Shown: piece by piece, positions 30,919 through 37,048 of the stretch | Position numbering within the stretch: position 1 is the stretch's first letter | How the letters are laid out: each line of letters begins with the position of its first letter | Origin: Cyanobium sp. FACHB-13342 | Lineage (GTDB): Bacteria; Cyanobacteriota; Cyanobacteriia; PCC-6307; Cyanobiaceae | Reading direction: 5' to 3' | Length of the DNA stretch: 64,000 nucleotides | NCBI RefSeq assembly: GCF_014697415.1 | Contig: NZ_JACJRT010000008.1 | Coordinates: 248,001 to 312,000, forward strand | Notes under the pieces: model-generated | The model's database searches: none | Told to the model about the DNA's origin: nothing | Seen by the model: only the letters and a program-made list of their open reading frames with translations | Position numbers and translations under genes: made by a program

Positions 30919-32004
30919 CTACACCGCTGCGGCGGCCTGCAGCAAGGCTGCCTCGATCGCCGCTTGATCGAGCTGAAAACCGAGCACGACCAACTCCAGG
31001 CCCGCTGGTGGAGTGGGCTGATCCCCAGCCGGATCTGGTGATCCGGATTCAAACCAACACTCCAAACGTGGGCCGACGGCCTGGATCTGCAGGGGTCGGG
31101 CCTTGCCCTCCAGCCAGAGGCGTCCCTTCAGACGGATCAGCTTGGGATCCTGGAGCACCTGGGTCAGCTGTTGCTCCAGGGCCGACCGTCCAAAGGCTCC
31201 GCTGAGGTGCAGGGCCAGTGATTCCATGGCGACGTGGCTGTGATCGTGCCCATGGTCATGGTGGTGGTCGTCATGGTCGTGGGCGTGGTGGCCATCGCCT
31301 TGGGGCTCCTGCCGCTCCAGACCGAGGACGAGCTCGGGTGAGACCGCTCCCCGTTCCATGGCCAGCACCGCGGCCCCGGGGCGCATCTGAGGCAGCAGGC
31401 GCGCCTCGAGCTCCCGAAGAGGCCCCTCCCCAAGGGAGTCGGCCCGGCTGATCAGCACCAGATCGGCGGCTTCCAGTTGTTCGGCAAACAACTCCTCGAT
31501 GGCGGAGCCATGGTCGAGGCTGGGATCGGCCTGGCGCTGCGCCTCGAGGGCGGCCGGGTTGGCCACCACAGCTCCGGCGGCCAGCGCCTCTCCATCGACG
31601 ACGGCCACAACCCCGTTCACCCGGATCCGGGTGCGGATCGCCGGCCACTGGAGCGCTGCGATCAACGGTTCGGGCAGGGCCAGTCCGCTGGTTTCCACAA
31701 CGATGCCGTCGAGGCTGTCGGCGCGCGCCAACAAGCGCTCCATCGTTGGCAGAAAATCGTCCTGGACGGTGCAGCAGAGGCAGCCGTTGGCCAACTCCAC
31801 CAATCTGGACTCGATTTCGTCGTCCGGACAAAATCCGCAGCTGCGCAGGAGGGCTCCGTCGATGCCCACCTCGCCGAACTCATTCACCAAGACGGCGAGG
31901 CGCTGGCCGCTGTTGAGCAGGAGATGGCGCAGGAGGGTCGTCTTGCCCGCACCAAGAAACCCGGTCACCACCGTGACCGGCAAACGTTGCTGCAACGAAG
32001 CCAT
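30919..32004 (-). CDS. cobW: CobW-type metal chaperone GTPase
   Basis: A 361-residue G3E GTPase. The P-loop is 'TVVTGFLGAGKTTLLRHLLL', the family cysteine motif is 'ANGCLCCTVQDDFLPTM' (CxCC), and 'VVETSGLALPEPLIAAL' is switch-like. Between the GTPase and C-terminal CobW_C domains lies a histidine-rich metal-binding loop (about residues 239-258, H and D alternating). The C-terminal domain 'LKGRLWLEGKARPLQIQAVG' is intact. CobW-class proteins hand a metal, here most likely cobalt, to a target. It starts 2 nt after hupE and is thus under the same cobalamin riboswitch. Confidence 0.92.
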   Translation of the reverse strand: MASLQQRLPVTVVTGFLGAGKTTLLRHLLLNSGQRLAVLVNEFGEVGIDGALLRSCGFCPDDEIESRLVELANGCLCCTVQDDFLPTMERLLARADSLDGIVVETSGLALPEPLIAALQWPAIRTRIRVNGVVAVVDGEALAAGAVVANPAALEAQRQADPSLDHGSAIEELFAEQLEAADLVLISRADSLGEGPLRELEARLLPQMRPGAAVLAMERGAVSPELVLGLERQEPQGDGHHAHDHDDHHHDHGHDHSHVAMESLALHLSGAFGRSALEQQLTQVLQDPKLIRLKGRLWLEGKARPLQIQAVGPRLECWFESGSPDPAGDQPTPPAGLELVVLGFQLDQAAIEAALLQAAAAV

Positions 32005-32006
32005 CG

Positions 32007-32666
32007 TCAGCCCGCCACAGCCGCGACAGCCCAGGTGGCCCCACAGCCGGCGAGGGCCAGGGCCATCCAGCGAAGCTTGGCGGGAGACAGCCGGGCAGCC
32101 AGGGGCCTGAGCAGGACCAGGGCAAGGATGAGCAAGCCCCCCTGGCTGATCAGCAGCCCGGCGGCGTAGGCGGCCACGGGCATCGACGTCCAACCGAAGA
32201 CGGGTCCACTCAGCACGTACCCGTGCAGGGCCATGGCAGGCAGCAGGAGCCCCAGGGGGAGGCGACGCAGAAGCACCAGGGCCTCCACCACCAGCGTGCA
32301 GGCCACCAGCACTTCAGCGCCAGGCAGACCCGGCCAGAGAAGTCCCGCGGCGCTGCCCAACAATCCGACAACCAAAAGACCGAGGGACCAGCGGCGGCGG
32401 TGCTGCAGACCCACCAGTGAGAGGGCGAGCAGGAAAAGCAGGTGGTCGGGCCCGAGCACCGGGTGGGCCAATCCACTCAGCACCCCGTTGAAGGCGGTGG
32501 GCGCCAACTGGCCGAGGTCGGCCACGTGGTGGGCCAGGGCGGGGGACCCAAGCAACAGGGGAGCAACCAGGGCCGTGCCGGCGACCACTGGACCAGGCAT
32601 GGATCTGGATCTGGGCAACAAGGATGGTCCTCGCAGACCGGGCGTCTGGGTCGTCTGAATACTCAT
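32007..32666 (-). CDS. hupE: HupE/UreJ family metal (cobalt) permease
   Basis: About 219 residues. A signal-like segment ('ALVAPLLLGSPALA') precedes 'HHVADLGQ' with the N-terminal histidines. The family hallmark 'LAHPVLGPDHLLFLLALSLV' follows, then roughly five more membrane segments. HupE/UreJ proteins are nickel or cobalt permeases, and cyanobacterial members behind a B12 riboswitch have been proposed as cobalt importers. ATG at 32666 is used here; ATG at 32600 would begin nearer the signal segment. It is the first gene after the riboswitch and is coupled to cobW. Confidence 0.88.
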   Translation of the reverse strand: MSIQTTQTPGLRGPSLLPRSRSMPGPVVAGTALVAPLLLGSPALAHHVADLGQLAPTAFNGVLSGLAHPVLGPDHLLFLLALSLVGLQHRRRWSLGLLVVGLLGSAAGLLWPGLPGAEVLVACTLVVEALVLLRRLPLGLLLPAMALHGYVLSGPVFGWTSMPVAAYAAGLLISQGGLLILALVLLRPLAARLSPAKLRWMALALAGCGATWAVAAVAG

Positions 32667-32724
32667 GGGTCCGGTCCGCGCCGTGGATGGAAACAAAACC
32701 GGCGGGCGTTCTGACTGGACGGTC

Positions 32725-32841: not shown

Positions 32842-33366
32842 CTATCGGCAGGCCAGGCTGTCCCGGGTCGCCACGCCGGACACGGGGTTGGTTCCTGTGG
32901 CCCTCTGGCAGAGGGCCTTCTGCTCGGGAAGATCGAGCACCGCATCACTGAAATCAGCCCCGTCGATCTGGGCCCCCTTGAAGTGGCTCTGCATCAACAT
33001 GGCGTTGCGCAGCACGGCCCCACGCAAATCCGTGTCTTCGAAGTGGCTGGCAAAGGCCACCACATCCTCCAGGTTGGCGCCCTGCAGATCAGCCCCGCGC
33101 AGGTCGCTGCTGTTGAACACCGCCCCACGCAGATCGCTGGCGCTCAGATCAAACCCGGCCAGGGAGGCCTTGAGAAACTCCTGTTGCTGCAGGTTGCGGC
33201 CATGCATATCAGGCTGAAGGTCCTGGAGCGAGCGCTGGCTTCGCAGTTCCGGTGCCGTGATGGCCCAGGCCGGTGGGACCGCCAAGCACCAGGCCAGGAG
33301 GACGCCAAGCGCCGCCATACCCCAGCCCGTCCAACGGGTGATGGGGGTTGCTGTCAGAGAGCCCAT
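32842..33366 (-). CDS. Secreted pentapeptide-repeat protein
   Basis: About 174 residues with an N-terminal signal peptide ('GMAALGVLLAWCLAVPPAWA') and a run of A(D/N)LxX-type pentapeptide repeats ('LASLAGFDLSASDLRGAVFN' style, from about residue 65 to 145). This gives a right-handed quadrilateral beta helix, probably in the thylakoid lumen or periplasm. The short C-terminal segment has a cysteine pair that may close a disulfide. Function is unknown, as for most lumenal pentapeptide proteins of cyanobacteria. A hairpin overlaps its stop codon (32831-32854), and the cobalamin riboswitch follows directly. Confidence 0.85.
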   Translation of the reverse strand: MGSLTATPITRWTGWGMAALGVLLAWCLAVPPAWAITAPELRSQRSLQDLQPDMHGRNLQQQEFLKASLAGFDLSASDLRGAVFNSSDLRGADLQGANLEDVVAFASHFEDTDLRGAVLRNAMLMQSHFKGAQIDGADFSDAVLDLPEQKALCQRATGTNPVSGVATRDSLACR

Positions 33367-33396
33367 GGGCGCGCATTTACGGTGGGTCATCAAGTT

Positions 33397-34062
33397 ATGT
33401 CAACCATGGTCATGGCCCTGCGGGTGGTGGTTCCCCCCCATCCCCTGATCGGTCACTGGTTGGGAGTGTTGCGCGATCGCCACACCCCTGCCGCGCTCTA
33501 TGCCACCGCCACAGCCGAACTGGGTCGCTGGCTGAGTTACGAAGCCCTGCGCGACTGGCTACCCCACCGGCGGGTTGACCTGGACACCCCCCTGGCACCC
33601 ACGCAGGCCGACCTGGTGGATGCCGCCGTTCCACTGGTGGCCATCCCCCTGCTTACCGCAGGACTAGGCCTTTGGCAGGGGGCCCAGGCCGTCTTGCCAT
33701 CGGCCCGGGTGATCCATCTTTGGGACCAGCACGGGGAGATCGCCGGCCTGGACTCTCCCATCGACCCCCGGGCCGGCGTGCTGCTGTTTTGCGCGGAGTT
33801 GGGCGACGGTGATCGGTTGATCCGGGTGCTCGATCGCCTCGCCGAGCAGGGCGTTAGCGGGGATCGACTTCGGGTCGTCACGGCCCTGGCCTCGGCCCCA
33901 GGACTCCAGTCCCTGGGTGAACGGCACGGCCATCTCACCCTTTACACGGCCGCGATCGATCCAGACCTCAATGCACTCGGTCAGATCGTGCCCGGCATCG
34001 GCCCCGTGACGGAGCGACTCTTCGCAGGCACCGTGCTGGAAAGCGTCGCTGGCCCTGCCTAG
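33397..34062 (+). CDS. Uracil phosphoribosyltransferase-like protein lacking the PRPP loop
   Basis: A 221-residue protein that aligns end to end with UPRT: 'HPLIGHWLGVLRDRHTPA', 'LSYEALRDWLPHRRVDLDTP', 'VAIPLLTAGLGLWQGAQAVL' and the C-terminal uracil-side 'LNALGQIVPGIGPVTERLFAG'. The PRPP-binding loop, DPMLATGGS in active enzymes, is replaced by 'CAELGDGDR', and the arginine of the 'LRAGLG' motif is a threonine. It therefore probably does not make UMP from uracil and PRPP; a binding or regulatory role is inference. ATG at 33397 is chosen; an ATG at 33406 is alternative. It is divergent from the pentapeptide-repeat gene, with about 30 nt between starts. Confidence 0.82.
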   Translation: MSTMVMALRVVVPPHPLIGHWLGVLRDRHTPAALYATATAELGRWLSYEALRDWLPHRRVDLDTPLAPTQADLVDAAVPLVAIPLLTAGLGLWQGAQAVLPSARVIHLWDQHGEIAGLDSPIDPRAGVLLFCAELGDGDRLIRVLDRLAEQGVSGDRLRVVTALASAPGLQSLGERHGHLTLYTAAIDPDLNALGQIVPGIGPVTERLFAGTVLESVAGPA

Positions 34063-34087: not shown

Positions 34088-34375
34088 ATGGGCGATCGCA
34101 GCGGCAACGCCACCCCAACGGGCAACGGATCCGCCCTCAGCGTGCTGGCCGGAGCGGTGATCGGCGCCGCGGGGCTGGCCTGGTGGCTGCTGTCGGAAGC
34201 AGAACGGCGCCGCCTTGAGGCCGATCGCCCCAGGCGTCAGCGTTCAATCCCTCTCCAGGACGCTGTGGCCGCCGAGCCCTACACCGAGCGCGACCTCCAC
34301 GATCGGGTTCATGAGCTCAACCAGGCGATCGATGACGTCCGTCGCCAACTGGAAACCATGAACCCCCAGCCCTGA
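34088..34375 (+). CDS. Small membrane-anchored hypothetical protein
   Basis: A 95-residue protein with one N-terminal membrane segment 'LSVLAGAVIGAAGLAWWLLS', followed by a basic stretch 'RRRLEADRPRRQRS' and a C-terminal helix with coiled-coil character ('LHDRVHELNQAIDDVRRQLE'). The basic residues just after the membrane segment predict a cytoplasmic C-terminus. No family is recognised. It lies between the UPRT-like gene (25 nt) and ilvD (57 nt) on the same strand. Confidence 0.72.
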   Translation: MGDRSGNATPTGNGSALSVLAGAVIGAAGLAWWLLSEAERRRLEADRPRRQRSIPLQDAVAAEPYTERDLHDRVHELNQAIDDVRRQLETMNPQP

Positions 34376-34432: not shown

Positions 34433-36103
34433 ATGCTTCGCTCCACCGCGATCACCCAGGGGATCCAGCGCTCCCCGAACCGCGCCATGTTGCGGGCGGT
34501 GGGCTTCGGTGACGGCGATTTCAACAAGCCGATCATCGGCATCGCCAACGGCTACAGCACGATCACGCCCTGCAACCTGGGCCTGAACGACCTGGCCCAG
34601 CGGGCCGAGGAGGCCGCCCACACGGCCGGGGCGATGCCGCAACTGTTCGGCACGATCACCGTGAGCGACGGCATCTCCATGGGCACCGAGGGGATGAAGT
34701 ACTCCCTGGTGAGCCGTGAGGTGATCGCCGATTCGATCGAAACGGCCGTCAACGGTCAGAGCATGGATGCGCTGCTGGCGATCGGCGGCTGCGACAAGAA
34801 CATGCCGGGGGCGATGCTCGCCATGGCCCGCATGAACATTCCCTCCATTTTTGTGTACGGGGGCACGATCAAGCCGGGCAAGCTCGGCGCCTGCGATCTC
34901 ACCGTGGTGAGTGCCTTCGAGGCGGTGGGTCAGTTCAGCGGCGGCAAGATCGACGAGCAGGAGCTCACGGCGATCGAGAAAAACGCCTGTCCCGGTGCCG
35001 GCAGCTGCGGCGGCATGTTCACCGCCAACACCATGAGCGCGGCTTTCGAGGCCATGGGACTGAGCCTGCCGTTTAGCTCCACCATGGCGGCTGAAGACCC
35101 CGAAAAGGCCGACAGTGCCGCCCGCAGTGCGGAGGTGCTGGTGGCAGCGATCGAAGCCAACATCCTTCCGCGGGATCTCATGACCCGCGAGGCCTTCGAG
35201 AACGCCATCAGCGTGATCATGGCGGTGGGCGGGTCCACCAACTCCGTGTTGCATCTCCTCGCCGTGGCCCGCACCGCCGGTGTACCGCTGAGCATCGACG
35301 ATTTCGAAACGATCCGCCAGCGGGTACCGGTGATCTGCGACCTCAAGCCCAGCGGCCGTTACGTGACGGTGGATCTGCACCGGGCCGGTGGCATCCCCCA
35401 GGTGATGAAGCTGCTGCTCGATGCCGGGTTGCTCCACGGCGACTGCGGAACCATCGAGGGCCGCACCCTGCGCGAGGTGCTGGCGGATGTGCCCAGCGAT
35501 CCCCCCGCGGGCCAGGACGTGATTCGTCCGCTCTCCAATCCGCTTTATGCCAAGGGTCACCTGGCGATCCTCAAGGGCAACTTGGCCGAGGAGGGCGCCG
35601 TGGCCAAGATCAGCGGCGTGAAGAACCCGGTGATCACGGGCCCTGCCCGGGTCTTCAACAGCGAGGAAACCTGCCTGGCGGCCATCCTCGACAAGCAGAT
35701 CCAGCCTGGAGATGTGGTGGTGGTGCGCCAGGAGGGCCCGGTTGGCGGTCCCGGCATGCGGGAGATGCTCAGTCCCACCGCGGCGATTGTGGGTCAGGGG
35801 TTGCTGGATTCGGTGGCCCTGATCACCGACGGCCGCTTTTCCGGTGGATCCTTTGGTCTGGTGGTGGGTCACGTGGCACCTGAGGCCGCTGTGGGCGGCA
35901 CCATTGGCTTGGTGCATGAGGGCGACAGCATCACGGTGGATGCCAACCAGTTGTTGATCCAATTGAATGTGGATGACGGTGAAATCGCCCGTCGTCGCGC
36001 TGCCTGGGTGAGGCCCGAGCCGCGCTACCGCACCGGAGTGCTGGGCAAATATGCCCGTCAGGTGAGCAGCAGCAGCCTTGGCGCCGTCACCGACCAGCCC
36101 TGA
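34433..36103 (+). CDS. ilvD: Dihydroxy-acid dehydratase
   Basis: A 556-residue IlvD of normal length. Iron-sulfur ligands are in '[14 protein letters not shown]' and '[19 protein letters not shown]'; other signatures are '[16 protein letters not shown]' near the N-terminus and '[20 protein letters not shown]' near the C-terminus. It dehydrates 2,3-dihydroxy-isovalerate and -methylvalerate to the keto acids of valine and isoleucine, using an oxygen-sensitive [Fe-S] cluster. The ATG at 34433 gives the conserved N-terminus '[20 protein letters not shown]'. Confidence 0.97.
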
Positions 36104-36132: not shown

Positions 36133-36519
36133 TCAGTCCAGAGGGAGCAGCAGGGCCCGCAACCGCCGGGCCAAGGCCTCCAAAGGAGCCCCATCGGGCG
36201 GCCGTTCACAGCGCTCTCCAGATGCGGGATCCATCCACACCGGATGGTTCCCATGCCAGAGCAGGGGGCGTTCCTGATCCTCAGACCAGGCCAGGTTGAG
36301 GTTGAGCGCATCGCCGCTGCGATAGATCTCCAGCTCCAGATCCTCCTCAGGGCAGCGGATCCCATCTGGTTGACGGGCCTCCAGCCGTAGACAGCAATCA
36401 TCCAGGTGCTGGGCCGCACCGAGTGGGAGCACGGCGTGCCTCAGGGGCTTGCGGCAGAGGTCGGCCGCCGCTGCCACCAACTGCTGCAGGTTGGTGTTGA
36501 CCAGCTCAGGGGTAGCCAC
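36133..36519 (-). CDS. Hypothetical protein
   Basis: About 128 residues from GTG at 36519, chosen because it overlaps the upstream CIA30-like gene by 14 nt in the manner of the other junctions here. The sequence has an N-terminal helix 'LVNTNLQQLVAAAADLCRKP', a middle strand-rich part 'EEDLELEIYRSGDALNLNLA' and a C-terminal helix 'LEALARRLRALLLPLD'. There is no signal peptide. I recognise no family. It is the last gene of the run pgl-CIA30-this, and converges on ilvD with a 29-nt gap. Confidence 0.68.
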   Translation of the reverse strand: MATPELVNTNLQQLVAAAADLCRKPLRHAVLPLGAAQHLDDCCLRLEARQPDGIRCPEEDLELEIYRSGDALNLNLAWSEDQERPLLWHGNHPVWMDPASGERCERPPDGAPLEALARRLRALLLPLD

Positions 36520-37048
36520 GAATCGAGAGCAGTTCCAGATGGATCGGACCGGATCGAAAGCCCGCATTCAGGCCACCATCATCGGCGAATCGGGAGTGCA
36601 GCACCTGCAATCGGGTGATCCGGGCTGGATCGAAGACCAGGGGCAGGCCCACCGGTTTCGCCCGGACCGAGGCCCGCAGATCGCGGAAGGGAATGCGCAG
36701 CAGGGTGGCGCCTTTACTCTCAGTGCCGAATTCGATCACCCAACGCAAGCCACCGGGGATCAGATTGGTCAGCCCTGCCAGTCCATCGGCGCAGGCCACG
36801 GCCAACTTGAACCGTCGTCCTTCCCCCACAAGCTCGAGCTCCAGGCCTTCGCATGCCGAAAGATCCAGCGGCGGCGAAAACAGGGGGGAGCGGGCACTGA
36901 TGAAGCCTCCGCCCTCCTCGATCAACAGGCCATCAAACACCAACCCCTGGGGCCCGACCCGGCAACTGCCCTGGCTGCGCCCTCCCATCACGGTGTCGTT
37001 GAGGGCGTGCCAACCACTGAAGCCGTCCCCCGAGGAAATCGGGATCAC
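36506..37048 (-). CDS. CIA30 family protein (NDUFAF1-like)
   Basis: A 180-residue protein with the CIA30 (complex I intermediate-associated protein 30) beta-sandwich pattern: 'WHALNDTVMGGRSQG', 'LIEEGGGFISARSPLF', 'LVGEGRRFKLAVACADG' and 'IPFRDLRASVRAKPVG'. The eukaryotic namesake assembles mitochondrial complex I. The cyanobacterial role is unknown, and an NDH-1 link is only inference. Its start overlaps the pgl stop (ATGA), and its 3' end overlaps the next gene. Confidence 0.85.
   Translation of the reverse strand: MIPISSGDGFSGWHALNDTVMGGRSQGSCRVGPQGLVFDGLLIEEGGGFISARSPLFSPPLDLSACEGLELELVGEGRRFKLAVACADGLAGLTNLIPGGLRWVIEFGTESKGATLLRIPFRDLRASVRAKPVGLPLVFDPARITRLQVLHSRFADDGGLNAGFRSGPIHLELLSIRGYP

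Follow-up and report, generated by a model that had tools for sequence, protein, structure and literature searches.

Why would a cyanobacterium keep a uracil phosphoribosyltransferase (UPRT) homolog whose PRPP-binding loop is gone? The question is raised by a gene in the 64,000-nucleotide stretch of Cyanobium sp. FACHB-13342 DNA analyzed here (hereafter the window), which an earlier note, made from the sequence alone, had read as an intact open frame at 33397-34062 encoding a retained protein with a new role rather than a decaying enzyme. The frame is present and intact, but the gene probably starts three codons further downstream, because the Met shared by family members sits at the fourth codon of the longer frame. 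With that start, the gene for the putative UPRT-like pseudoenzyme spans 33406-34062 (+ strand) and encodes 218 amino acids; all residues are numbered from it.

An eroded UPRT active site

As the note had claimed, the protein aligned with UPRTs over its whole length (Pfam UPRTase, 120 bits against a cut-off of 27), and HMMER alignments to solved UPRTs reproduced the reported substitutions. CAELGDGDR (residues 129-137; 33790-33816, + strand) replaces the PRPP loop DPMLATGGS, LLTAGLG (33649-33669, +) occupies the place of the LRAGLG motif with TAGLG aligned to RAGLG and Arg84 changed to Thr, and IVPGIGPVTERLF (33985-34023, +), previously named as the uracil-side motif, falls on the UPRT C-terminal motif, where the canonical DAGD (200-203) reads PVTE. 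Neither of the NCBIfam Upp equivalog cut-offs was reached (104 vs 208.35 bits; 111.2 vs 114 bits); these two Upp models were the only matches at E up to 1, with no PyrR model among them. A search for a second, canonical upp found no further full-length UPRT-family gene in the genome (18 contigs, 99.4% complete). Confirmation of the best 80 of 579 matches yielded named relatives that include Cyanobium sp. T1B-Tous (91% identity), Synechococcus sp. CS-1330 and CS-1331, and Synechococcus WH7803; 18 viral stretches matched the search patterns and none was confirmed. A sequencing error at the loop was considered and rejected, as the T1B-Tous homolog reads CAELSDGER there.

The earlier judgement that the rest of the protein is well kept was too generous. 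Our residue table covered 30 type A and 19 type B UPRTs from other cyanobacteria together with 14 intact and 96 eroded family copies, and 45 of its columns held one residue at a frequency of at least 94% in both type A and type B. Among these columns, the window protein's losses in the PRPP/catalytic elements include R84, R109, P130, M131, A133, T134 and D200-A201-G202-D203; R84, R109 and all of D200, A201, G202 and D203 are invariant in both types, and G136, invariant in type B, is likewise lost. At seven of its nine positions the loop departs from DPMLATGGS, and the PRPP/catalytic elements still present are A85, G86, L132 and G135, the last two within the loop. R84, R109 and D200 are the alignment counterparts of Arg77, Arg102 and Asp198 of M. 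tuberculosis UPRT, which have roles in PRPP binding or catalysis according to the accessible text of PMC3570474; the window protein carries T84, H109 and P200 at these PRPP-arginine and catalytic-aspartate positions. The flap (residues 104-117; 33715-33756, +), from which the conserved Arg109 is lost, is shortened in the window protein and deleted in marine/Prochlorococcus-type copies (n = 64). The observation of a lost PRPP loop thus holds and was understated: as judged by alignment, the whole PRPP/catalytic site is gone. Separately, the FR-motif Arg at residue 33 (33502-33504) is invariant in types A and B, but family copies with intact loops keep it in only 7% of cases, so that this residue changed before the PRPP loop did.

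Retention across the 96 eroded copies depended on where in the protein a residue lies. Around the former active site it was 19% for R84, 3% for R109, 19% for P130, 0% for M131, 40% for A133, 26% for T134, 76% for G135, 1% for G136, 31% for D200, 4% for A201, 2% for G202 and 1% for D203, while D185, P196, G197 and G199 were kept in 100%. The N-terminal region (residues 1-53; 33406-33564, +) holds the most conserved stretch, LRVVVPPHPLI.HWL..LR....TP followed by ELGRWL.YEALRDWLP. The residues there that mark type B against type A (P10, P11, W18, P28, G40, W42 and W51) are all present in the window protein and retained in 99-100% of eroded copies; across the family, much of the N-terminal third hardly varies. 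Over the 16 type-B-specific columns of this region, mean retention was 0.81 (Y8 0%, D24 30%), and two of them, 8 and 44, differ in the window protein. When all columns are averaged, residues specific to type B fare no better than those that type A also has (0.60 vs 0.57); what sets kept from lost residues apart is their location, N-terminus versus active site, not their class.

The fold itself appears to be complete. An AlphaFold2 model built from 55 sequences (the window protein plus homologs from named genome contigs) reached a pLDDT of 90.4 and a pTM of 0.87. VIA-align 2 placed it at Z 22.5-27.1 to 14 UPRT entries, with the next class at Z 13, and Foldseek agreed; the Upp structures 1i5e and 2ehj share the fold at Z 25.4 and 26.5, respectively. 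In the model, the CAELGDGDR segment sits between the strand and the helix that normally flank the PRPP loop, so the loop is predicted to have been replaced rather than displaced, and the idea that it had moved elsewhere was rejected. The protein resembles Upp (EC 2.4.2.9) in fold, full-length alignment and the C-terminal PG.G segment, but differs from it in lacking the catalytic aspartate, the two arginines that contact PRPP and the PRPP loop.

Distribution, ancestry and constraint in the Cyanobiaceae

A UPRTase match over the Pfam cut-off was present in 135 of 151 Cyanobiaceae genomes, including every searched genome of at least 94% completeness; the other 16 are 53-93% complete. We fetched 135 family loci, with the locus of the window itself serving as L001. 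Once L166, which is cut by a contig end, and L089, a different second UPRT, were set aside, regular expressions sorted the 134 native copies into 14 with a full loop, 19 with a partial or damaged loop and 101 that are eroded. The gene persists even in genomes of 1.6-1.7 Mb. In one genome (G030) the native copy (L112) is eroded, and a very divergent second UPRT at another site (L089:3974-4633, +) has its loop intact; the latter was perhaps regained by transfer.

On a quick-search tree with SH-aLRT support only (184 rows, LG+G4; L166 and the duplicate L219 left out), the eroded state requires at least three changes and the window protein descends from type B. The largest eroded clade (96 copies, support 92) joins the window protein with copies from Prochlorococcus-sized genomes; the other two comprise L068, L069 and L074 (support 99) and L079 and L083 (support 99). 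Elsewhere in the Cyanobacteriia, some UPRTase match was found in 116 of 117 genomes of the class, type B in most and type A in part, with types assigned by sequence for the fetched loci and by score band for the rest. The window protein shares its lineage, the N-terminal markers P10, P11, W18, P28, G40, W42 and W51, and a neighboring gene with type B, but the loop that it lacks is intact in all 19 type B loci fetched from outside the family (L200-L218).

The gene is under purifying selection. Against Cyanobium T1B-Tous, the window gene gave dN 0.046, dS 0.566 and dN/dS 0.081, and pooled dN/dS was 0.091 for 12 eroded sister pairs and 0.088 for 5 intact pairs (13 eroded pairs were listed; L091/L094 is absent from the codon alignment). 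By region, the eroded pairs gave 0.041 for residues 1-53, 0.079 for the former active-site elements and 0.109 for the rest. Across all pairs with dS of 0.05-1.2, the median was higher in eroded than in intact copies (0.416 in 418 pairs vs 0.233 in 49 pairs), a comparison that we trust less because it includes many old pairs with probable saturation of dS; the higher value is also expected from faster past change in the eroded lineages. The first half of the earlier reading, a retained protein rather than decay, is thus supported by selection on the window gene and the sister pairs and by presence in 135 of 151 genomes. The second half, a new role, fared less well: the role is probably not new but old, as described below, and no finding points to ligand sensing in particular, which the earlier note had offered as an example.

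PyrR and uracil salvage

The window's genome encodes PyrR (240 bits; cut-off 138) with an intact PRPP loop. This protein (NF003549) is annotated as having UPRT activity and shares a genome with the UPRT-like protein, but it is separate from it, and the UPRT-like protein matches no PyrR model. Xanthine/uracil permease and udk models had no match in the same genome. Two other phosphoribosyltransferase genes were over their cut-offs there: a fused OMP decarboxylase-orotate PRTase (L225:1342-3153, - strand; 685 bits, NF004034) and a separate orotate PRTase (L226:1414-2517, -; 136 bits, TIGR00336).

PyrR was over its cut-off in 78 of 81 Cyanobiaceae genomes of at least 95% completeness (the match in another genome, G031, contains one TGA). 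The three exceptions belong to one genus (g56): G086 and G110 have no match, and G130 has a remnant with five stops. In all three, the eroded UPRT-like gene still has an open frame (L169, L155 and L167, respectively), and this retention without an intact PyrR is the strongest argument against hidden salvage or a PyrR-linked role. A general PRTase search found three other genes in each of the three genomes and, in G110, an additional 20.8-bit fragment with a stop; we treat this result as supporting only, because the model misses some PRTases. Within the genus, loss of this pyrimidine regulator is ongoing: G086 and G110 are complete genomes without PyrR, and their relatives G056 and G146 keep it.

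Pairing with a small membrane protein gene

The surroundings of the UPRT-like gene are conserved within the family. Upstream and divergent lies a pentapeptide-repeat gene (32842-33393, -), and an ilvD-like gene, named by recognition, holds a conserved position downstream (34433-36103, +). Among the 135 family loci, homologs of the pentapeptide gene were found in 133, of a cobW-like gene in 131, of the ilvD-like gene in 117 and of a small downstream gene in 115; the corresponding counts by BLAST in the 19 type B loci outside the family were 2, 1, 0 and 0. No pyrimidine gene was seen among the conserved neighbors in the 135 family loci. Further out, a CobW-type GTPase gene with a His-rich stretch (30919-32193, -) overlaps a HupE/UreJ-family gene (32007-32696, -), likely a metal-handling pair. 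A CIA30-domain protein (complex I intermediate-associated protein 30 family; 103.6 bits) is encoded at 36506-37048 (-), 2.4 kb downstream, with a homolog in the fetched stretch of 100 of the 135 family loci.

The small gene (34088-34375, +) begins 25 bp after the UPRT-like stop, close to the median of 24 bp across 109 loci, and encodes 95 amino acids that, by inspection, form one TM stretch and a C-terminal coiled coil. No Pfam family matched it at E up to 0.01, and its sole NCBIfam match at E up to 0.1 was NF053524, 'ssl2009 family thylakoid membrane protein', so that the thylakoid assignment here comes from the family name. It has a TM stretch and a C-terminal coiled coil in common with the ssl2009 family, whose TM stretch, like its own, is glycine-rich, but unlike members of that family it scores under the cut-off (33.7 vs 58 bits). 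Two distant type B neighbors score above it (117.6 and 86.9 bits), and the small protein shares a profile with proteins at the same position in other cyanobacteria, a relationship that is partly circular in that the profiles were built from these sequences.

With one such profile (A3), the small gene was found in 45 of 71 Cyanobacteriia genomes outside the family, and in 41 of these 45 it lies directly downstream of a type B UPRT on the same strand, with match edges 65-451 bp apart. A mixed profile applied to the fetched loci found the two genes side by side in 116 of 136 loci from the family, in 12 of 19 of type B and in 0 of 31 of type A (two of which hold the same gene, and 30 of which are short, up to 3.6 kb). 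Adjacency is not obligatory, since 7 of the 19 type B loci and 20 of the 136 from the family lack the pair. For the 20 non-adjacent family loci, 15 genomes were searched whole and 14 have the small gene elsewhere, the sole miss being an 88% complete genome (G103); four of four additional genomes also have it elsewhere. Family loci with full or partial loops in which the UPRT gene lacks the small gene as a neighbor include L043, L046, L047, L049-L055, L061 and L064-L066, and it is present elsewhere in 13 of these 14 genomes. An apparent fusion of the two genes in L091, where one frame carries both matches, spans a run of N and was rejected as an artefact; in the sister locus L094 a stop separates the genes.

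Across 116 genomes of the phylum, another profile (A4) gave at least 49 bits in 51 of 51 Cyanobacteriia and more than 35 bits in 0 of 65 genomes from other classes, a contrast that is partly built in because A4 was made from cyanobacterial members. Weak matches occurred in 51 of those 65 genomes, and second matches in Cyanobacteriia reached 36.6 bits. The other classes of the phylum are not known to photosynthesize.

A proposed role at the thylakoid membrane

Frequent pairing with the gene for a probable thylakoid protein suggests a lasting job in photosynthetic membranes, not uracil recycling, and the role seems to predate the loss of catalysis because ssl2009-type pairing also occurs beside intact UPRTs across the Cyanobacteriia. 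At a probability of about one half, we favor the reading that the window protein is a catalytically dead type B UPRT kept for a second job at the thylakoid with the small protein. From its residues, the UPRT-like protein would no longer make UMP; its kept surface would work with the ssl2009-type protein at the thylakoid membrane, where the job may be to set up or maintain a photosynthetic complex. The Cyanobiaceae would have dropped the salvage job, which PyrR may cover, and kept the second one. The most speculative step is the target: by analogy with plants, whose plastid UPRT has been reported to be needed for cytochrome b6f, this complex is the best candidate.

Plant plastid UPP, presumably a sequence relative of cyanobacterial type B, is thought to be active, unlike what we propose for the window protein. 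Ohler and colleagues reportedly found in 2019 that a dead UPP rescues the plant mutant and E. coli upp does not; the accessible parts of three further citing papers do not state this rescue. The likeness to the window protein lies in a UPRT-family protein being needed for photosynthesis: as far as their accessible text goes, published studies describe plant UPRT as required for establishing photosynthesis (PMC4137279) and plastid UPRT as required to establish cytochrome b6f (Scherer, 2024), and plant work has also been interpreted to mean that uracil salvage itself is needed (Mainguet, 2009).

A wider version of our proposal is tentative: type B UPRT and its ssl2009-type neighbor may form an ancestral thylakoid module for b6f biogenesis that chloroplasts inherited, of which the enzyme half died several times in the Synechococcus-Prochlorococcus family and the structural half alone stayed under selection.

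Other explanations fit parts of these data. The protein might be a ligand sensor or regulator of pyrimidine metabolism that binds uracil or a uridine nucleotide through PG.G and has no thylakoid role. The complete retention of D185, P196, G197 and G199 in the 96 eroded copies and the constraint on former active-site elements in sister pairs (dN/dS 0.079) speak for such a sensor, which we nevertheless consider doubtful: the remaining C-terminal site (200-203) is lost, the conserved neighbors seen include no pyrimidine gene, and the UPRT-like gene is retained where PyrR is gone. That the thylakoid partnership serves another complex or process, such as photosystem assembly, NDH-1 or membrane organization, strikes us as unlikely. 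The gene pair is well supported, the link to b6f comes from one paper title and a CIA30-domain gene lies 2.4 kb downstream, which leaves room for another target, but the plant parallel, and that parallel only, favors b6f. We regard continued enzyme activity, as a phosphoribosyltransferase or otherwise through an unorthodox site, as very improbable, since the loss of R84, R109 and D200-D203 and the change of 7 of 9 loop positions in the window protein, along with deletion of the flap in 64 marine/Prochlorococcus-type copies, outweigh the complete fold and the purifying selection over the former site. That a dispensable gene is slowly decaying is hardly credible: loop loss is repeated and graded and the all-pairs median is higher in eroded copies (0.416 vs 0.233), but sister-pair constraint is equal (0.091 vs 0.088), every searched family genome of at least 94% completeness has the gene over cut-off, there are no stops, and the gene survives in 1.6-1.7 Mb genomes.

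A literature search mostly confined to papers outside subscription found no paper on UPRT-site loss in picocyanobacteria and none on ssl2009 or sll1035, the latter of which we take to be the Synechocystis upp locus tag. Braakman (2025; PMC11698098) treats nucleotide recycling in Prochlorococcus, and the accessible text contains no discussion of its UPRT.

The retention of a UPRT-like protein at the thylakoid, as we propose, bears on both phototroph physiology and plant biology. A UPRT-family match would credit some of the most abundant phototrophs with Upp uracil salvage, which would be wrong for most Cyanobiaceae. The plant question of why photosynthesis depends on a plastid UPRT becomes directly testable in a lineage where the enzyme site is lost, the protein is kept and there is a candidate membrane partner. 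If the ancestral module proves true, the Cyanobiaceae would represent a natural experiment indicating that the 'moonlighting' role of plant UPRT is old and can stand alone.
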